In this document: positions 16,209 through 43,187 of the stretch, piece by piece
How the letters are laid out: every line of letters starts with the position of its first letter
Numbering within the stretch: the first letter of the stretch is position 1
Virus record (IMG/VR): IMGVR_UViG_3300028843_000261
Span: 1-46,501 of that record
Direction: 5' to 3' (one strand)
From: a virus
Length of the DNA stretch: 46,501 bases
Position numbers and translations under genes: made by a program
Notes under the pieces: generated by a model
What the model saw: only the letters and a program-made list of their open reading frames with translations
What the model was told of the DNA's origin: nothing
Databases searched by the model: none

Positions 16209-16426
16209 TCACTCTTTTTTCCTATTCTTTCAGCTTGCTTTTTACTCAGTCCAAAAACCATTGAGCTTTTTCCTATTGGAATTTTTTCAATAAAATTATT
16301 TTTATCTTTAAGAAATTCTTTAATGTCTTCTTCTATCTTCTTCCTCAAAATGTCCTTGTGGACTTCCTCCTCACTATCAATTACTTTTCTAGGAATATGA
16401 ATATATCCATGCGTGTTTTTACTCAT
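16205..16426 (-). CDS. small hypothetical protein
   Basis: 73 residues from the ATG at 16426 (a GTG one codon upstream is possible). It is charged and helical: EEEVHKDILRKKIEEDIKEFLKDKNNF, then GLSKKQAERIGKK. It is the last gene of the leftward block, overlapping the ligase stop by 8 bases, and ends in a tail-to-tail overlap (4 bases) with the rightward holin candidate. No function recognised; the KKQAERIGKK end could touch nucleic acid. Confidence 0.45.
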   Translation of the reverse strand: MSKNTHGYIHIPRKVIDSEEEVHKDILRKKIEEDIKEFLKDKNNFIEKIPIGKSSMVFGLSKKQAERIGKKSD

Positions 16427-17525
16427 CACTCTTTTCCCTAAACATTAACGCGACCGCCTCTACAGGCTTTTTACCACTTGTGTATCCCTCGAACTCTGCC
16501 CTTATGTGCTTTCCAATATACTCGTCTTTATTTTTTAAAATAAGAGTTTTTTCGGGAACACTTCCTGGAGCTGACATGCTAAATCTTACTCCATTTTCTG
16601 TTTCGCAAATTAAAATCGCCCATCCATCTACGGAGCTTTTTATATTAACAACTAGAAATTCGTCATCCAGCATAAAACTTTCTTCTGTACCACTAGTTAT
16701 TTTCCGCTTAACCTTTAGGACATTTTTGGAACGCTTGCCCTCCTCATACATGCCGTGTGGCAAGCGTAGTATCAGTCCCTCATATTTTTCCTTGAGTGCT
16801 CTTTTTAGAAGCGAAAGAAGATTAAACTCTCCAACTAAATAAGAAGTGTTTATGTATTCCGATTTTTTACCGAACTCAAATGCTCTCAAGAATATATCTC
16901 TTTCTTCGAAGGTTTTTTCTGGATCCATATAATCGAAACACTTGAACTCTAGTTTCAAGGTGTCTGGCTGTCTCCTCTTAACCCAGCTTCCGATCGTTTG
17001 CAATGGGGTTCCGTGATGGTAAAGTTCTCCGTCAATAGGTCTGTGTTTTTTCTTTAGTACTCCTTCGTATTCGGAAAGTATTTCCGGAATGGAAGTTATT
17101 AGCCTTCCTCCTTTGCTATAGGCTTTCATAGTGCCATTGTCGTTTATTATACTGCATCGGTGGCCGTTTAACTTGTGCTGTATGTATACGCCATTGCTAG
17201 GCGTGTCTGACAGACGTTTTAGGCTATGCGCGTTCATTTGCCTTGCGTAGCCAAGCGTATTGCTATTGCTTCCTGTAAGGGCTTTCTGGGGCGTCGTACA
17301 GTGTCCCGAATCAAGCTTTTTGCTCACTCTGCTATTAATCCTCATTGCGATCTGTTCTTCTTTTGTCCTGTTTGCAAGACCATAATGGATCGGTTCCGAG
17401 TTCTCTTGGATTTCACCTCCAAGAACTCCGTGCTCCATAATTATATAGTCTTCATCAGACCATATAGACCAAATTCTCATCTTGCCTCTCGAGTCTTTTT
17501 TGTATAAGTCTATTCGATCTTTCAT
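16419..17525 (-). CDS. ATP-dependent DNA ligase
   Basis: 368 residues. Nucleotidyltransferase motifs are in order: motif I at residues 117-123 (HKLNGHR, with K118 as the AMP-accepting lysine in place of KxDG), motif III DGELYHHG (165-172), motif IV EGLILR (249-254) and motif V LKVKRK (270-275). A C-terminal OB domain follows with SGKKPVEAVALMFR. The first about 75 residues (YKKDSRGKMRIWSIW) look like a small WGR-like domain. It seals nicks during phage replication or recombination. Motif I has N instead of the usual D, which deserves note. Stop overlaps the following small gene; start abuts the deoxyribosyltransferase. Confidence 0.85.
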   Translation of the reverse strand: MKDRIDLYKKDSRGKMRIWSIWSDEDYIIMEHGVLGGEIQENSEPIHYGLANRTKEEQIAMRINSRVSKKLDSGHCTTPQKALTGSNSNTLGYARQMNAHSLKRLSDTPSNGVYIQHKLNGHRCSIINDNGTMKAYSKGGRLITSIPEILSEYEGVLKKKHRPIDGELYHHGTPLQTIGSWVKRRQPDTLKLEFKCFDYMDPEKTFEERDIFLRAFEFGKKSEYINTSYLVGEFNLLSLLKRALKEKYEGLILRLPHGMYEEGKRSKNVLKVKRKITSGTEESFMLDDEFLVVNIKSSVDGWAILICETENGVRFSMSAPGSVPEKTLILKNKDEYIGKHIRAEFEGYTSGKKPVEAVALMFREKSDE

Positions 17526-17980
17526 TATGTATTCACCTCTGGAAAATTTGTGATGTCGTCTTCAACGTATCCCCATTGTTTTATCGAGAATACAATTTCT
17601 TCAAGGTTTTTGATTCCCCTTGCATGAGCGCATATTGCATATCTCAGCATTACATTCACAGGCTTTTGATTGCTTGTGAAAGTTATTATATTCTCGACTT
17701 CTTTTGGAGACGCAGCCGCAAATCCCAATTCAAACATTGTTCCGGTGTCAGGCCAGTCAACAACTGCTATCATTGTGTCGCATGAAAGAATGTTTGAGAT
17801 ATTAGAATCGTAGATCTCTTCCATTCTAAGCCACTTTTCTCTTGGCGTCATATCTTTTATGACACCGAAGCTTCTCGGAGAGAAATACTCTGTCATAGAT
17901 GAGTCTAGAGACCTCTCTATGCTCTTTACAAGATCAAGCTGTTCATCATTAAAAAACGGGGATGCTATATAAATTTTCAT
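17525..17980 (-). CDS. nucleoside 2-deoxyribosyltransferase-like protein
   Basis: 151 residues. KIYIASPFFNDEQLDLV at the N-terminus and IAVVDWPDTGTMFELGFAAA at about 70-89 are the nucleoside deoxyribosyltransferase signature. The glutamate in FELG is the likely catalytic nucleophile. The enzyme transfers or hydrolyses a 2-deoxyribosyl group and would help recycle host nucleosides or trim unwanted ones. It shares a base with the ligase start. A weak TATAAT-type promoter lies about 30 bases upstream. Confidence 0.7.
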   Translation of the reverse strand: MKIYIASPFFNDEQLDLVKSIERSLDSSMTEYFSPRSFGVIKDMTPREKWLRMEEIYDSNISNILSCDTMIAVVDWPDTGTMFELGFAAASPKEVENIITFTSNQKPVNVMLRYAICAHARGIKNLEEIVFSIKQWGYVEDDITNFPEVNT

Positions 17981-18008
17981 TGAGTGATCTTCCTATTAAT
18001 ATTCTTGT

Positions 18009-18014
18009 ATTATA
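18009..18014 (-). promoter_or_regulatory. candidate extended -10 promoter for deoxyribosyltransferase-ligase genes
   Basis: Reading leftward the sequence is TGTTATAAT: a perfect -10 hexamer with an upstream TG. No good -35 box was found at 16-18 bases. It lies in the 49-base gap before the deoxyribosyltransferase gene. Confidence 0.35.
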
Positions 18015-18029
18015 ACATTAAAACTACTT

Positions 18030-19121
18030 CTATTTAACAATAGAAATTATGTCTTTCCAAAAAACTGGTCTGTCGTCATCTTTTGCTTGCGTTATCATCT
18101 TTTCCCTCTGCAGAGAGTTTATAGACAGGTTGTTTAAAATCGCGTGTTTTGGACACGGCGCGTTAGGGTCCTTTCCTTCAAGACGAAGTTCCGCGTCTTT
18201 TTCGTAAGGACATTCTCCGTCGTGGCACGGAAGACCAGCGCTATCTGCTTCGATAATCGTGCTTATCTCGTTAAGAATAGGAGCCCATAAATTATACTGA
18301 GCTATCCAGCAGCTTCTTTTTCTGAGGATGTCTATCATGTCCTCTTCAAAACCCGATATCTGAACGAACATTTTGTCTCCGATCGAGGAGTATACTATTC
18401 CTGGATCCATCATCATTGAGCGCAGATTGTCCCTTATCAGTATGCTTCTGTGTCTGACAAGCTGAGCTCTAAGAGATATTGAAATTCTTGCGCTTATTGT
18501 TATTGTTCCGCCAATATGTCCGCTGCTATTGCATTTTATACTCTTCAGGATTTCAGGCGTTTTGTATTTCTCGATAGCGTCAATCTCAAATCCTAGATGA
18601 ACCAAAACAGCATCGAATTCGTAAATAAAGCTTTCTAACATTTCTAAAAGATGATTAAAATTTCCAGACTCAAGAAGATGCACAGCATAATTCCTGAGAT
18701 GTGCTATGTCTCTGGCCGACATTCGTATTGAGTATTTAGTAGTAGACATTATTGGAAGCTCCATTCTGAAATCGTCCTGTCTGCTAACTCCAGAGGCTGT
18801 AATCATACGATCTCTCACTCTTTCAAAAACCTCGGTATCATCTATCCAATCTGGATATTCAAACTCTAGAATATTCTGAACTCTAGATGTTTGCGCCCAC
18901 ATGACGTGGTTCCTCATGCTTACAATTATTTCTCTTTCTAAAATAGTAGACTCAACAAACATTGATGCTGAGCAAAACTCGTTTACTGGAAGATCTAAAC
19001 TCCTGACCATTTTTCCGTATAGCTCTTCCATTTTTTCTTTTGGTCTGGAGTTGCACCATGCAACTTTAGACATATGATTTCCATCAGACTCAAATGACGA
19101 TTCTATAATTTTAATTTTCAT
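18030..19121 (-). CDS. divergent ThyX-like (flavin-dependent thymidylate synthase) protein
   Basis: 363 residues, longer than usual ThyX. The core has LRAQLVRHR (residues 218-225), as in ThyX where the RHR binds nucleotide and flavin. The canonical RHRxxSxNxxSxRY signature is not intact: after RHR comes SILIRDNLRSMM. Before the core is a NHVMWAQTSRV segment (71-81). The C-terminal third has a cysteine cluster (CHDGECPYEK, then CPKHAI) that could be a metal site. In ThyX, dUMP is methylated using methylene-tetrahydrofolate and FADH2. Context (HD nucleotidase, NDT, dUTPase elsewhere) supports pyrimidine nucleotide metabolism. It may make a different product or be a non-canonical ThyX. Confidence 0.5.
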   Translation of the reverse strand: MKIKIIESSFESDGNHMSKVAWCNSRPKEKMEELYGKMVRSLDLPVNEFCSASMFVESTILEREIIVSMRNHVMWAQTSRVQNILEFEYPDWIDDTEVFERVRDRMITASGVSRQDDFRMELPIMSTTKYSIRMSARDIAHLRNYAVHLLESGNFNHLLEMLESFIYEFDAVLVHLGFEIDAIEKYKTPEILKSIKCNSSGHIGGTITISARISISLRAQLVRHRSILIRDNLRSMMMDPGIVYSSIGDKMFVQISGFEEDMIDILRKRSCWIAQYNLWAPILNEISTIIEADSAGLPCHDGECPYEKDAELRLEGKDPNAPCPKHAILNNLSINSLQREKMITQAKDDDRPVFWKDIISIVK

Positions 19122-19720
19122 TGTGCTCTCCTTGTTATATCGTAAATTATTTCAGAACATTCTTTTCTTAGCCTCTCTAAAAATGGAGACTCAACGATGT
19201 TAAACTCGCTGTATATCGTTACAAGCTTTTCTCCTAGGCTCTTCTCGGCCTTCTCAAGAATGTGGATAACAGTTCTGTTTCCTCTCATCGCAACTTCGTC
19301 GCTTATTTTGTATATAACAGCAAGCAAATCGCAAAGAGAAACTACCGACCCTTCCTTGCCCTTTTTTGACGAGCTCCATATTTCAAACAGTCTGTGTGAT
19401 CCAGAAATATATAAAGACAGTTCGTTTACAGCATCAACTTCCATCTCGTTTATTATCCTCCGCATTTCCTTGCTGTGGTATTTTACAGGCATTGCTATGT
19501 CTCCAGTAGAAACCTCGTCAATGTCGTGCATTATAGCCTTTGACAGAAGTTTTCCAAGATCCATTTTCCTGCCCTCCAAAAGAAGCTCCTCGTATATAAA
19601 CAGAGCCATCACTGAAACAAATCCCGAATGCTCTAGGACGGACTCATTGTTCACAAGTCTGCTGTCCGAGTATCTGTTTACAGACGCAAGTTTCGATATT
19701 GTTTCCATGTATTTCTTCAT
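19118..19720 (-). CDS. HD-domain 5'-deoxynucleotidase, YfbR-like
   Basis: 200 residues. HD metal ligands are in order: H31 in LEHSGF, H65-D66 in IMHDIDE, and a later D in SLCDLLA. The opening NRYSDSRLVNNESVLEHS and the DEVSTGDIAMPVKY segment match YfbR-type enzymes that dephosphorylate dNMPs, including dCMP and dUMP. It probably directs nucleotide pools toward phage DNA. It overlaps the ThyX-like gene by 4 bases (ATGA). Confidence 0.75.
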   Translation of the reverse strand: MKKYMETISKLASVNRYSDSRLVNNESVLEHSGFVSVMALFIYEELLLEGRKMDLGKLLSKAIMHDIDEVSTGDIAMPVKYHSKEMRRIINEMEVDAVNELSLYISGSHRLFEIWSSSKKGKEGSVVSLCDLLAVIYKISDEVAMRGNRTVIHILEKAEKSLGEKLVTIYSEFNIVESPFLERLRKECSEIIYDITRRAQ

Positions 19721-23159: not shown

Positions 23160-23449
23160 TTTGTGTTTTCCTCATCTAGATGTTTTAAAATTTGTGAGTA
23201 TATAGAAATGTCATTCAAAGAGTCTTCGTGACCACCGCAATGAAAATTATTTCCGTATCTAATTATTTTGCTTATCATAAATTCAAACACAGAATATCTA
23301 TTAAAGTCTTCTTTCGTATTCAATACGATGCCATCTCCAAAAATTGCAAGCATCACCTCGCCTTTTCTTTTATATGCCTCTCCGTATTCTAGTTCTTTTT
23401 CTTTTTGTGTTTTGGAAAGGAGTTGAAGTTTTTCGCTAACACTATTCAT
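23156..23449 (-). CDS. DUF1599-like (nucleotide-modification-associated) small protein
   Basis: 97 residues, helical. The pattern KEKELEYGEAYKRKGEV, then FMISKIIRYGNNFHCGGHEDSLNDISIYSQIL resembles the phage DUF1599/Nmad1 family (YGxxY, R...G.....ES..D...Y). Members are found near nucleotide-modifying enzymes in phages. It overlaps the exonuclease start by 4 bases and the VOC gene by 8. No catalytic residues can be named; the H-E-D segment might bind metal. Confidence 0.5.
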   Translation of the reverse strand: MNSVSEKLQLLSKTQKEKELEYGEAYKRKGEVMLAIFGDGIVLNTKEDFNRYSVFEFMISKIIRYGNNFHCGGHEDSLNDISIYSQILKHLDEENTK

Positions 23450-23939
23450 CGTCCGTGTTCCTTCTGTATATGAGTTTCAGGTCAAATCCAAATAGAAAAA
23501 CAGTGTCCATTATTATATAATGATATTTTCTATTGGCAGGAATATTTTCATTTGAATGTGAAAATGTTTTTGCTTCTTGCGCTATTCCTATTCCGCTTTC
23601 CATAAGTTTGTTTTTGATCGACTGAAACTCGCTCCAGTTGTCAATGTGTACGCCTATGTGGCTGATAAAAGGCTCGCTAGATGTGCCGGAACCTCTTTGC
23701 ACATGCCAGTTATCACCTTCGGTATATTCAAGGATTTCAAATTCAATCCCGGGAATTAAATCGTAATTGAAATTCAATTCGGCTTTTGTTGATTTTGTTT
23801 CTCTGTCGAATACAGAACCAGAAAACAAAACTGTGTCGAAGATCCACTCAATAGCACCTAGATGCTTTTTTATATTCTCAACATATACTCTAGAGTCTTT
23901 TCTGACACCGATTGCTATTTGCGTTAATTTAATAGACAT
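23442..23939 (-). CDS. VOC (glyoxalase-fold) superfamily protein
   Basis: 165 residues. The strand order and FISHIGVHIDNWSEF segment (about 91-105) match the vicinal oxygen chelate fold. An early TQIAIGVR strand and two beta modules are visible, and a final HYIIMDTVFLFGFDLKLIYR strand. Substrate unknown: VOC members include dioxygenases, epimerases and binding proteins. It lies between a DUF1599-like gene and an SDR gene, so a small-molecule or nucleotide modification role is possible. Confidence 0.55.
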   Translation of the reverse strand: MSIKLTQIAIGVRKDSRVYVENIKKHLGAIEWIFDTVLFSGSVFDRETKSTKAELNFNYDLIPGIEFEILEYTEGDNWHVQRGSGTSSEPFISHIGVHIDNWSEFQSIKNKLMESGIGIAQEAKTFSHSNENIPANRKYHYIIMDTVFLFGFDLKLIYRRNTDDE

Positions 23940-23941
23940 AT

Positions 23942-24700
23942 TTATGCTCCGTATTCAATATCACATCCTGATAAATAAAAGTGCCTTTCTTTTTTGGACA
24001 AAAGAAAAGCTATGAATTCCGCTAGAATTTCGGGGTCTGTTTCAACTCCGGTCGTAAGTGCGTTTGCTTGATACTGTTTTGAAAATTCAGCGGTCCATCC
24101 GCGCTTTTCGGGAATAATAGCGTCAACGAACTTGCTCATTCCTGTTCCGTCCAGTTTGTTGGGGCTAACAGAAAAGACAGTGATGTTTTTTTCACGTGTC
24201 AGTTCATGCGCCATTTGTTTTGTTATCATTTTTGCAGCGGCCTTGCTTGCATTGTATGCAAGAGAACATCTCATTGGAACGCGAGCAGCATTTGAAACAA
24301 TATTTAAAATGGTTCCTCCTGCACGACTAATTTGCGGGAGTAGCATTTGAGAAATTATAAATGTTGCTCTGGCATTCACGTTCATCAAGCTGTCAAATGT
24401 TTCTACGTCGGCTTCATGAAACCACTGATTCATGTTCAGGCCAGCGCAATTTATTAAGCAATAAATTTTACCCAATCCTTCAAGCTCCAAACAACTTTCC
24501 ACGGTATCGGTTTCGTCATTTAAATCGCATTCAACAATATCGTCCAAGTGTTCTGGCAAAATTTCTAAAAATGTAGAGCTAGAATGAGCCAGCGCAATTA
24601 TATGAAAAGTCGGGTCGGCTTTCTTTAGTTGTCTTGCGACCATGTATCCAAGATTGTCTGGCTCGCTGCATCCAGTTATAACAATATTAATATTTCTCAT
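23942..24700 (-). CDS. short-chain dehydrogenase/reductase (SDR)
   Basis: 252 residues from ATG 24700, which has GGAGAC a few bases upstream; an in-frame ATG at 24739 is less likely. The Rossmann start is NIVITGCSEPDNLGYMVA (the GxxxGxG loop is altered), followed by INCAG, a serine in NIVSNAAR and the YNASK catalytic motif (Y and K of the active site). An NAD(P)-dependent oxidoreductase is expected. Phage SDRs are rare; this one leads the leftward nucleotide-metabolism operon, so it may act on a nucleotide sugar or a modified base. Substrate unknown. Confidence 0.75.
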   Translation of the reverse strand: MRNINIVITGCSEPDNLGYMVARQLKKADPTFHIIALAHSSSTFLEILPEHLDDIVECDLNDETDTVESCLELEGLGKIYCLINCAGLNMNQWFHEADVETFDSLMNVNARATFIISQMLLPQISRAGGTILNIVSNAARVPMRCSLAYNASKAAAKMITKQMAHELTREKNITVFSVSPNKLDGTGMSKFVDAIIPEKRGWTAEFSKQYQANALTTGVETDPEILAEFIAFLLSKKERHFYLSGCDIEYGA

Positions 24701-24741
24701 TTTGTCTCCGTTTTGTTTTAGTAATTGTTGGACGAACATCT

Positions 24742-27085: not shown

Positions 27086-27270
27086 AGGTTCTTCTCCAGT
27101 TCCGTTTTGATACGCTCCATTCTGTCAACTGTGCTTTCAAGGTTTTCAAGCTCGTCGAATTCAATTGCGTCCTTTAGCTTTATGATTTCCATTTCCAAAA
27201 AAGATACAGCGCAATGAACTTCGGCTTTCAGTTTCCTGTTTTCGTTTTTAAGCTGCTGGACATAATTCAT
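27082..27270 (-). CDS. small coiled-coil protein
   Basis: 62 residues, almost entirely heptad-like: YVQQLKNENRKLKAEV, then KLKDAIEFDELENLEST. It probably forms a coiled-coil dimer. It overlaps both neighbours by 4 bases. Function unknown. Confidence 0.5.
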   Translation of the reverse strand: MNYVQQLKNENRKLKAEVHCAVSFLEMEIIKLKDAIEFDELENLESTVDRMERIKTELEKNL

Positions 27271-27533
27271 TTTAATTCCTCCCTGTCAAATAGAATTGCA
27301 TCGCCAGCGATATAGTCTGTTTTTGAGATCACTCTCGCCGCGAGCATTGTTGCAACATGATTTATTTCGTGACTAGAAAACTTTGCTTCCTCTCCGATTA
27401 TAATGACGCGACCATCAATGAGCGTCACCGACTCTATAAAGCCGCCAACTATTTTTTGCATTTCCTCAAGACTAACCTCCTTGCCTCCATTTATTTCGAC
27501 AACGTCTCCGTGAACTGGTATTAATCTGGCCAT
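27267..27533 (-). CDS. DUF3846-like small protein
   Basis: 88 residues. The pattern VEINGGKEVSLEEMQKIVGGFIESV, then INHVATMLAARVISK and IAGDAILF resembles the DUF3846 family found in phages and plasmids: a glycine turn after SLEEM.K.VGG, N..AT, and a closing I.GD strand. Its role is not established. It overlaps the preceding gene by 4 bases. Confidence 0.5.
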   Translation of the reverse strand: MARLIPVHGDVVEINGGKEVSLEEMQKIVGGFIESVTLIDGRVIIIGEEAKFSSHEINHVATMLAARVISKTDYIAGDAILFDREELK

Positions 27534-27535
27534 GA

Positions 27536-28447
27536 TTATTCTCCTGATAAAGATTTTAGTTGTGAGTATACTTTTTCTAGATCGCGAAATGCGTCTGATT
27601 CCCTAGTGCTTTTGTCAATATAGACTATTTTTGTGTGACCGTCCTTCACCTCCTCCTGGAGATTTATCGGAACATTGTGGTCTCCTATTTTTATGGTTGC
27701 TCCCATTCCGCCAGAGAGCTTGTATTCGTTCTGAGCAGACTTGGCAGCGAATCCAAACACGCGATGAAATCCAACATGCGACATTGCTGCAAGACGCTCA
27801 ACGCTCAAAGACTGATTGTACTCCTTAACGACAACGGCACATGAGCAAGAATGACCGACTCTTTGGAATGCCGCCGAAGAAGTTCCTCCGACCAAAATGC
27901 GTACTGACTTGCCAGCTTTTTGCAATTCACCAAAAACCTTCAGGACTACAACAGAACGCCATAGTGAATCGTCAGCGTCAACTAAAGCAAGGCCTCCTAT
28001 GTTTATGAACAATGTTATCAGCGAGTGTTTCTTATCTACGACAACACGCTCTCTCCTACTCCATGCTGACTCAAGTTTTCCGGCATAAACCTTGTGGATA
28101 TCTAGCTCATCGCCGAACCTATCAAATTTTAATTTCCTCTTGACAGATTCTATCCTCTGCTTTGAATTAACATTGCTCATGTCGATTGTCTTATTCATTC
28201 GATTGACTTTTTTCATAAGGCTTTCATACAAAGCTTTGTCCCCAGTAAGGGCATGGTCTATAACGTCACCGACATTTTCGTTGGTGCTGCCAAGCCAATT
28301 GCTATAATTTCTTTGTGAGCGATTCATGAATTTGCGAAACACATCTGCATTTTCCCCAGACGGGACGTAGTCCATTAGGTCAAGGATTGATTCAAAATAA
28401 ACACTCACAAGTCTGTCATTTTTCAAAACTATATTTTTGTTTTTCAT
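27536..28447 (-). CDS. VWA-like (DUF7192-type) partner of MoxR ATPase
   Basis: 303 residues from ATG 28447, with GGAGTG upstream and one base after the ATPase stop. The core alpha/beta section (HSLITLFINIGGLALVDADD, about 141-160; VVVLKVFGELQKAGKSVRILVGG, about 166-188) resembles a von Willebrand A-type fold and the phage DUF7192 family. The MIDAS DxSxS is replaced by NIGG. The C-terminal half has CAVVVKEYNQSLSVERLAA and FHRVFGFAAKS. Pairing with a MoxR-type AAA+ gene is a well-known arrangement in cellular genomes, where the pair acts as a chaperone or metal-loading system. The target here is unknown. Confidence 0.55.
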   Translation of the reverse strand: MKNKNIVLKNDRLVSVYFESILDLMDYVPSGENADVFRKFMNRSQRNYSNWLGSTNENVGDVIDHALTGDKALYESLMKKVNRMNKTIDMSNVNSKQRIESVKRKLKFDRFGDELDIHKVYAGKLESAWSRRERVVVDKKHSLITLFINIGGLALVDADDSLWRSVVVLKVFGELQKAGKSVRILVGGTSSAAFQRVGHSCSCAVVVKEYNQSLSVERLAAMSHVGFHRVFGFAAKSAQNEYKLSGGMGATIKIGDHNVPINLQEEVKDGHTKIVYIDKSTRESDAFRDLEKVYSQLKSLSGE

Positions 28448-28448
28448 T

Positions 28449-29657
28449 TTATTGCACTCCTTTGAATTGAAATCCGCAAACAGCTTTTTCCTCTTTGCTC
28501 CAGTCTGCGAAATATCCCAGTTCAATATCTTCAATAGACCAATCACACTGCTCCTTCATGTCACTTGCATCAATCATGACTCTAGTAGAAAGCAACTTGT
28601 TGAGACGATGGCTTGATATTTTATTTCTTATCTCAATTCCCCATGCTAATACTTCTGGATCAACAAGCTTTTCTTCGACCGCTGGACTATAGTCCATAAA
28701 GATCGTGCCTAAACGGAAGCGATCCTTTGTAGCTCCGTCAAGAGCAACACGTCCGTGATACATCTGGTCGGCTCCATCGCCGAAAGTATTTGCTGCTCCT
28801 ACCGCAACAAAATCTTTGTGCTTGGACACTTTTGTTTTCTTGTATCGTTGAGGCAGAAAGAAATGGCTGTTTGCAAGAGCCTGATTCAAAAACACAAGAA
28901 CGTTCGCGTCACTGTTGTCCATCTCGTCAAACAAGAATACTCCGCCGTTTTCGTATATATCCAGGAACACGGACATGACATGATCAAACCGACCGTCCTT
29001 GCCTATTGGCAAAAGCCATCCTGCAAATGAAGACTCGCTAACTCCGGCTGAGCATGACTGGGATCCATAGCGCAAGCCAATAGCATCTGCTAATTGTTCT
29101 GCGACATGAGTCTTGCCGCATCCACTTGGACCGACAAGGAGAATGTTTTTCCTTGCTTCCGCCAGCTGAACCATCCTTGGAAACAATTCGTGGACGACTC
29201 CTTTAATCGCCTTTGGCTTTTTGTTGCCGATTTTTATTGCGGTCACATTAAACTTTTTCGACTCCCTTTCTATGGCAGCTGTCATACGCTCCTTTACTGT
29301 GGAAACAAAGTCATGCTGAATTTTCCGCAATTCGTTTTCGCGTTTTTCTATTTTATCGGCACATGATTTCTCAATTCCTTTCAATGCGCTGTCTTCAATT
29401 GACTTGACGTGAAAGTCAATTATGTGAGACGCATCGTTTACCGGAATAACTTTTTGAATAGCGCCAGTGGAAGTTTTGTGCAGGACTACAGAATCATAAG
29501 CCTTATCAAACTCCTCCCGATCTGCTTTTTCGCAGACATGAAGTTGTCTTTTAAGGTCTGCAATTTTTCCTTTTTGATCGTCAAGTTTAATTCCAAGGTA
29601 GTCCAGCATCATGCGGACTTGTGAACGTTCAAGTTCTAAAGTTATAGAGTTTTTCAT
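28449..29657 (-). CDS. MoxR-type AAA+ ATPase
   Basis: 402 residues. A long N-terminal helical/coiled-coil region (about 1-140) precedes the AAA+ core. Motifs are Walker A GPSGCGKT (176-183), Walker B GVFLFDEMDNSD (239-250), sensor 1 VAVGAANTFGDG (284-295) and GATKDRF with the arginine finger (308-314). The AANTFG...Y.GR..LD.A.KDRF string matches the CbbQ/NorQ/MoxR group of ATP-driven remodelers. It probably acts with the VWA-like protein encoded directly after it. Its leader has the ACATAAACAGG motif. Confidence 0.8.
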   Translation of the reverse strand: MKNSITLELERSQVRMMLDYLGIKLDDQKGKIADLKRQLHVCEKADREEFDKAYDSVVLHKTSTGAIQKVIPVNDASHIIDFHVKSIEDSALKGIEKSCADKIEKRENELRKIQHDFVSTVKERMTAAIERESKKFNVTAIKIGNKKPKAIKGVVHELFPRMVQLAEARKNILLVGPSGCGKTHVAEQLADAIGLRYGSQSCSAGVSESSFAGWLLPIGKDGRFDHVMSVFLDIYENGGVFLFDEMDNSDANVLVFLNQALANSHFFLPQRYKKTKVSKHKDFVAVGAANTFGDGADQMYHGRVALDGATKDRFRLGTIFMDYSPAVEEKLVDPEVLAWGIEIRNKISSHRLNKLLSTRVMIDASDMKEQCDWSIEDIELGYFADWSKEEKAVCGFQFKGVQ

Positions 29658-29729: not shown

Positions 29730-29755
29730 AAAAACAGAACGGGAGTTTCCTCCCG
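29730..29755 (-). terminator. intrinsic terminator after the 29763-30101 gene
   Basis: A six-pair stem CGGGAG/CTCCCG (29740-29755, TTTC/GAAA loop) followed leftward by CTGTTTTT. It sits just after the stop of the upstream leftward gene and separates it from the MoxR gene, which must then have a promoter in the following 70 bases or be read through. Confidence 0.7.
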
Positions 29756-29762
29756 CTGTGGT

Positions 29763-42608: not shown

Positions 42609-43187
42609 TTAGTAGTTTGCAGTAAATCTTGAAAACTGATTCTTGTTAAACTCTGGTCTTTCATCGTTATATTCCGATAATCTCAGGCTGACTATTTCAA
42701 TCAATGAGATTTCCTTTTTTATTGCTTCAAGCTCGTCTGTCAAGCATTCTATTTCCTCTTTGATTATTTCATCATAAAGATTGTTCCTGAAAGAAGTTGA
42801 CGAAAGACGACCAAGATTCCCTTCGCCCATAGCAATTTCGTGCTTTATATCTTTTGCTCTTTGTTTCATAAGAGATTTCATTCTTTTGAGTTTTAAGCCA
42901 CAATATGACACGATATTCTCAGCTTTTTCCCGAATCGCTTCTAGCATTATTTTTTTTATTTTTTCATCGATAAGACTAGAAATATCGCTATGAATACCAA
43001 GACAGTCGTAGGCCATTCTTTTTTCTTTGTCTATTAGAATATCATACGCCTTCTGAACCAGCATGAATTTATCGCTACAGCCTTCGTCTTTGTCTGGATG
43101 ATATTTTTGAGCAAGCTTTTTATAAGAAGATCTTACTTGCTTTTTTGTTGCGTCTACTTCAACGCCTAATATTTCGTAAGGATTCAT
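42609..43187 (-). CDS. J-domain (DnaJ-like) co-chaperone
   Basis: 192 residues. Residues 1-65 are a complete J-domain: YEILGVEVDATKKQVRSSYKKLAQKYHPDKD, with the HPD tripeptide, then KFMLVQKAYDILIDKEKRMAYD. The remainder is helical (KIKKIMLEAIREKAENIV, IKHEIAMGEGNL), without the G/F or zinc regions of DnaJ. It would direct host DnaK (Hsp70) to a phage substrate, for example a replication complex. Confidence 0.85.
   Translation of the reverse strand: MNPYEILGVEVDATKKQVRSSYKKLAQKYHPDKDEGCSDKFMLVQKAYDILIDKEKRMAYDCLGIHSDISSLIDEKIKKIMLEAIREKAENIVSYCGLKLKRMKSLMKQRAKDIKHEIAMGEGNLGRLSSTSFRNNLYDEIIKEEIECLTDELEAIKKEISLIEIVSLRLSEYNDERPEFNKNQFSRFTANY

Follow-up and report, generated by a model that had tools for sequence, protein, structure and literature searches.

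The question raised by this locus is what a MoxR-type AAA+ ATPase and the protein encoded directly behind it do in a phage. The window analysed here is a complete virus record of 46,501 bases, in which the second gene encodes a member of DUF7192, a family whose Pfam entry gives its function as unknown. The original prediction stated that the role of such pairs in phages was not known. Proposals for viral AAA+/VWA pairs have in fact been published, in which they act as CobST hijacking host CobN (PMC8651126) or as virion-assembly chaperones (PMC7824862), but none of them names DUF7192 and to that extent the statement stands. No mention of DUF7192 was found in the literature searched, with most subscription journals outside the search, so that priority is not claimable, and the literature on Kayvirus and Listeria phage transcriptomes held no statement on the ATPase/DUF7192 genes.

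The ATPase gene and its neighbour in the window

The left side of the window carries a tail and head module on the + strand, while a long region on the - strand holds replication and small genes, the ATPase/DUF7192 pair among them (Table 1). The mechanically assigned start of the DUF7192 open reading frame, a GTG at 28546, overlaps the ATPase gene; the likely start is the ATG at 28447, one nucleotide past the ATPase stop and with a GGAG nine bases upstream. The pair probably opens a transcript, since a terminator-like hairpin with a U-tract separates the preceding gene from that of the ATPase. Promoter-like sites around the pair were not above chance, and neither tRNA nor Rfam RNA genes were found in the window.

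Table 1. Features of the ATPase/DUF7192 locus, in window coordinates.
Feature	Position	Strand	Remarks
AAA+ ATPase gene, AAA_5 / MoxR-NorQ-CbbQ type, phrog_249	28449..29657	-	402 aa
AAA_5 core domain, residues 171-314	28716..29147	-	Walker A, helix-2 insert hairpin, Walker B, sensor 1, Arg finger
ATPase N-terminal long helix, residues 73-135 (63 residues), predicted coiled coil	29253..29441	-	AlphaFold2 model
DUF7192 (PF23822) gene, VWA-like fold, 303 aa	27536..28447	-	directly downstream of ATPase gene
Predicted DUF7192 finger, residues 103-135, strand-helix-strand	28043..28141	-	conserved G112/D116/G123; CbbO finger motif alignment
DUF7192 VWA strand beta-1 and MIDAS DxSxS remnant (N149-I-G-G-L)	27989..28021	-	
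Shine-Dalgarno-like GGAG of DUF7192 gene	28457..28460	-	within the end of the ATPase gene
Intrinsic-terminator-like hairpin and U-tract, z -2.6	29738..29757	-	between preceding gene and ATPase gene

Several other genes of the - strand were noted in passing. A DUF3846 protein is encoded directly downstream of the DUF7192 gene (27267-27533, -); a family of ~128 aa that resembles it by eye recurs in 12 dereplicated loci, and the DUF3846 gene may share an operon with the pair in some phages. A J-domain (DnaJ-like) protein with an HPD motif (42609-43187, -) adds another gene of chaperone type to this early region. The cluster at 16419-19720 and 23442-24739 (-) includes genes for a DNA ligase, a deoxyribosyltransferase-like protein, a protein that reads as ThyX-like and an HD dATP-triphosphohydrolase-like protein, with an SDR gene and one for a glyoxalase-like protein farther along. 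None of the window ORFs read was PurZ-like.

The complete MoxR/CbbQ-type motif string that had been claimed for the ATPase is present in the 402-residue product as VGAANTFGDGADQMYHGRVALDGATKDRF. The protein matched AAA_5 in Pfam (E 2.6e-15; 57.1 bits against a curated cut-off of 22) and phrog_249 (E 1.1e-46), which carries the label porphyrin biosynthesis. Residues G176, G181, K182, D244, E245, N290, T291, D307 and R313 were invariant across 66 sequences and cover Walker A, Walker B, sensor 1 and the Arg finger. The AlphaFold2 model (pLDDT 90.6) comprised a small N-terminal helical part, the long helix and a standard AAA+ module, in which strands 214-216 and 225-227 form the helix-2 insert hairpin. 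NorQ and CbbQ took the top 21 rows of the fold search (Foldseek E ~1e-12), and Midasin was the best PDB match by sequence. Among 117 ATPase cores placed in a tree, those linked to DUF7192 sat on long branches away from CbbQ, and viral rows were interspersed with bacterial ones; formal support for the split from the outgroups was weak (79/83) and the outgroups were thinly sampled. Judging from its family, the ATPase would form a hexameric ring. The long N-terminal helix had been taken as a clue to a specific partner and is indeed present in the model, but helix and N-terminal extension vary widely among these ATPases (~270-600 aa) and thus cannot define the function of the family.

The product of the second gene matched the DUF7192 profile with an E value of 2.4e-24 (86.6 bits against a Pfam cut-off of 27), and its AlphaFold2 model, built from 68 sequences, had a pLDDT of 92.0 and a pTM of 0.87. 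The VWA-like fold proposed for it was recovered, as the only PDB matches at a Foldseek E of 0.001 or below were the NorD VWA chains of NorQ-NorD complexes (E 8e-6 to 2e-4). VIA-align also placed the NorD VWA domain at the top (Z 9.4 over 199 residues, rmsd 4.6), followed by the MIDAS domain of Rea1/MDN1 (Z 7.4-8.3), with other VWA domains lower; the lack of further folds in the VIA list was given no weight. Since the Z scores were moderate and TM-scores low (~0.3), a fold match of the predicted model alone would not settle homology. A fold search of a viral library returned DUF7192 proteins first and then CobT/VWA proteins of phages and archaeal viruses.

Profiles were therefore compared as well, with a CbbO VWA profile drawn from 18 CbbO-type proteins encoded beside CbbQ genes. 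Against it, DUF7192 gave an hhalign score of 44.2 at a probability of 83%, which is not near 100%, with controls reaching at most 23.1 in 60 column-shuffled alignments and 13.4 for the reversed alignment. The profile alignment paired GDELDI with GDEIDI, FINIGG with LLDLSE and VVKEYNQSLSVERLAAM of DUF7192 with FKDF...RLAGM of CbbO, all in one register. While the DUF7192 profile returned nothing meaningful from PDB chain sequences, the fold search and the profile-profile comparison both succeeded, and they point to DUF7192 as a VWA-like family homologous to the CbbO-type VWA proteins.

A kept finger, a decayed metal site and a regular partner

In the model the finger segment (strand-helix-strand, residues 103-135) precedes strand beta-1, and its G112 was the most constant residue of the family, found in 104 of 105 dereplicated relatives, with an Asp near this glycine kept in 80. 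The MIDAS has fared otherwise, and its loss, which had been noticed from the sequence alone, was borne out. The window protein has N149 at the position of the first MIDAS Asp (N149-x-G-x-L). Across the 105 members the first position was N in 38, D in 28 and S in 20, the third S in 42, G in 24 and T in 13, and the fifth S in 45 and N in 33, so that D-x-[ST]-x-[ST] was retained in two (L048 and L061). The position aligned with the MIDAS Thr was mostly L or F and hence hydrophobic, followed by an Arg kept in 101 of 105, in a register that rests on the CbbO profile alignment and is less sure. DUF7192 is thus VWA-like and would work like a partner of MoxR ATPases, but is not a MIDAS-type VWA protein.

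As the finger glycine is near-invariant while the MIDAS positions drift, selection appears, from these alignments, to keep the ATPase-facing part of DUF7192 and to relax the metal site. The MIDAS mutants T534V and D562N of NorD still co-purify with NorQ and give no target maturation (PMC9976466), and decay of the MIDAS therefore need not break the ATPase/DUF7192 pair. The NorD finger is essential to target remodelling, the NorD C-terminus being the stronger anchor (PMC13036017). By analogy, DUF7192 would keep its engagement with the ring and hold its target otherwise than by a MIDAS.

The linkage of the two genes was followed from both sides. Locus searches with single proteins gave one relative or none, and alignments were used as queries instead. 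Starting from the ATPase only, 80 loci from viral contigs and 68 from bacterial genomes were collected, and DUF7192 was sought in them by iterated profile; starting from DUF7192 only, the ATPase was present in all 11 viral loci. Both genes occurred in 112 of the 123 dereplicated loci of the linkage set, phage and bacterial, which includes a few fetched by other routes. DUF7192 lay downstream on the same strand in 106 of the 112 (within 200 bp in 99) and upstream in the other six, and no other neighbour family occurred in more than 12 dereplicated loci. This far exceeds chance, and conserved linkage was thus found, as was the VWA-like fold; the lack of either would have spoken against the original prediction. 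Where DUF7192 was missing, the locus mostly had a contig end, a broken ORF or another type of ATPase, or came from Malacoplasma, which uses code 4. In Malacoplasma the partner seemed absent because of the genetic code: under code 4 a DUF7192-like partner scores weakly, with an E value of ~1e-3. From these loci, a large ATPase lineage, viral for the most part, appears to have DUF7192 as its regular partner.

A divergent branch of DUF7192 in Flavobacteriaceae (L223-L228; ~339 aa), seen in 5 of 249 genomes sampled, has no immediately adjacent ATPase gene; within the stretch read, three of six loci have an AAA_5 ATPase gene 0.8-5 kb away and the remaining three showed none. Among isolated phages, the pair is carried by Acinetobacter phage Bestia, Gordonia phage Kudefre and the Staphylococcus Kayviruses, and it was found in more than 200 Staphylococcus phage records. 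DUF7192 relatives also occur in mycobacteriophages such as LeBron, and ATPase relatives in 82 Mycobacterium phage records.

Some individual loci merit separate mention. In Malacoplasma genomes (L157:6535-9703, code 4) the partner of the ATPase is DUF7192-like but very divergent, and immediately upstream of the two lies a gene reading as adenylosuccinate synthetase. The DUF7192 gene of Staphylococcus phage BSwM-KMM1 has been annotated as a pair of ORFs (L005:6024-6868); it is intact in related Kayviruses (L088:6034-6879), and the split reflects a frameshift, an insertion or a sequencing error. Two candidates were rejected: a Turneriella ORF that matched both profiles (L160) was spurious, being one ATPase ORF of 338 aa, and a match in Vibrio phage Vp670 (27% over 99 aa) fell within a lysozyme gene.

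Possible roles of the pair

We consider it fairly probable that the pair is a NorQD-like, two-part, ATP-driven remodeller that docks its target free of a MIDAS, is not a cobalt chelatase and most likely serves in takeover or conflict. The reading builds on the observed ATPase motifs, VWA-like fold, CbbO-type homology, MIDAS decay and genetic linkage, and from these we infer the hexamer, the docking of the finger in the pore, the direction of force and the class of target. The pair would work like the bacterial NorQ-NorD and CbbQ-CbbO machines, with DUF7192 as a VWA-type adaptor seated on the ATPase ring. Its conserved finger would enter the central pore and be gripped there by the helix-2 inserts, and ATP cycling would twist DUF7192 so as to prise apart or rearrange the target complex bound to it, both steps being modelled on NorQD (PMC13036017). 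With the metal site decayed, contact with the target probably falls to surfaces outside the MIDAS; the candidates are the N-terminal region of DUF7192 and the ATPase's N-terminal helices, which are variable. In phages, the most likely target of the pair would be a complex of the host or of the phage itself, acted on in takeover of the cell or in conflict with it.

Host takeover or conflict is weakly favoured over virion assembly, on account of early-type placement, Bacteroidota copies beside restriction systems and DarT-like fusions. The pair lies amid small early-type genes in the Acinetobacter, Gordonia and Staphylococcus phages. The hints from restriction systems and DarT-like domains come from selected loci, and other Bacteroidota copies lie among housekeeping genes. 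A scan across both proteins gave no PADLOC defence model, with partial matches to the ATPase domain only and none to DUF7192. A more tentative suggestion, of low probability, is that the pair is an unrecognised mobile conflict module: phages would use the remodeller to dismantle or disarm a host complex, and bacteria would have taken it up too, with a LytTR-type regulator in front of it and restriction systems nearby in some Bacteroidota, and with DarT-like fusions in a few genomes.

The loci behind these hints are as follows. In Flavobacteria a three-gene cassette (L122, L133, L134 and L144; for example L144:6840-9606) comprises a LytTR-type response regulator, the ATPase and DUF7192, and in three of the four loci genes for restriction or for other kinds of defence (McrBC, GmrSD, type I RM, SLFN-g3 helicase) lie near it. 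Genome bins of Acholeplasmatales and Bacteroides (L145:8723-10690 and L146:1105-3036) encode, beside the ATPase, two proteins that have a DarT-like domain (ssDNA ADP-ribosyltransferase) at the C-terminal end of DUF7192; one of these passes the Pfam cut-off and the other falls slightly short of it. The Planctomycetota and DarT-type loci, which were scanned together, include terminase and portal genes, and some are therefore prophages.

A chaperone that remodels or helps to assemble phage structural proteins has been proposed for the MoxR-vWA pair of jumbo phages and for p618/p892 of the Acidianus two-tailed virus (PMC7824862, PMC7911831), and a gene reading as a terminase lies ~3 kb from the present pair in 11 dereplicated loci. 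In the window and in several isolates, however, the pair is placed among replication and small early-type genes outside the virion module, and the chromosomal Bacteroidota copies have no evident phage structural module nearby, which leaves a role in virion assembly doubtful. It is improbable that DUF7192 has a function of its own and is merely co-transcribed with the ATPase: the divergent Flavobacteriaceae members that lie away from an ATPase gene would fit this, but neighbour order is kept across 112 dereplicated loci whose other neighbours differ, the fold is specifically that of AAA+ partners and the finger motif is conserved.

A CobST-like accessory that borrows host CobN, inserts cobalt and raises the supply of cobalamin would suit the label of phrog_249, the structural similarity of DUF7192 to phage CobT proteins and the CobST-CobN hijack proposed for tailed viruses (PMC8651126). 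A cobalt-chelatase role is nevertheless unlikely, and this form of it highly so, because CobN went unmatched in 14 of the 16 carrier genomes, four of the five named isolate strains among them; several of the 16 were incomplete bins, and the host of the window virus was not among them. Moreover, neither protein matched the CobS or CobT Pfam domains (for the ATPase, among the best 25 of 35 matches), and DUF7192 has lost the MIDAS site, which the CobT-type partners that were read retain. The many Staphylococcus phages with the pair also speak against it, Staphylococcus hosts being, to our knowledge, devoid of cobalamin synthesis. The earlier analogy with bacterial pairs that mature enzymes or load metals thus holds at the level of the motor but not in its cobalt-chelatase version, CobN having been found in 2 of the 16.

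Relation to known AAA+/VWA machines

The remodeller favoured here belongs to a known kind of machine, of which the nature of the partner family was previously unannotated; what appears new is DUF7192 as a finger-bearing, MIDAS-decayed VWA family and regular partner of an ATPase lineage. For an unnamed Pfam family, this supplies a fold and a partner, along with a mechanism that can be tested. The porphyrin biosynthesis label of phrog_249, a family with hundreds of phage records, many of Staphylococcus Kayviruses among them, is probably wrong for the DUF7192-linked lineage. Being compact and having an adaptor that lacks a MIDAS by nature, the motor can also serve to tell the ring-gripping from the target-gripping parts of AAA+/VWA machines.

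In Rea1/Midasin, the second-best fold group for DUF7192, an AAA_5-type ring serves as the docking site of a VWA (MIDAS) domain; unlike the window pair, Rea1 is a single giant eukaryotic protein with an intact MIDAS that acts on pre-60S ribosomes. Among viral systems, the cobST (CobS-CobT) pairs of tailed phages and archaeal viruses (PMC8651126) are likewise AAA+/VWA gene pairs, with a structural match to CobT/VWA, but their CobT-type partners are mostly ~560-860 aa, against ~300 aa for DUF7192, and the two that were read keep MIDAS strings, which DUF7192 mostly lacks. The MoxR-vWA pair of group 2.2 jumbo phages and p618/p892 of the Acidianus two-tailed virus are viral AAA+/VWA pairs with a proposed chaperone role (PMC7824862); the jumbo-phage vWA protein has a metallopeptidase domain, which DUF7192 does not, and ORF892 gave only a weak structural match to DUF7192.

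The bacterial systems are closer. CbbQ-CbbO, a rubisco activase, shares profile homology in the VWA region, including GDE[IL]DI and FKDF...RLA, whereas CbbO keeps DLSEST and TDGEPADID and its ATPases fall outside the DUF7192-linked lineage in the tree. NorQ-NorD, which matures nitric oxide reductase in Paracoccus denitrificans, gave the best PDB fold matches to both window proteins. NorD differs from DUF7192 in its intact MIDAS, its larger N-terminal and linker region and its target, cNOR, but the two systems share the arrangement of an ATPase with a VWA partner whose finger stands ahead of the MIDAS strand.
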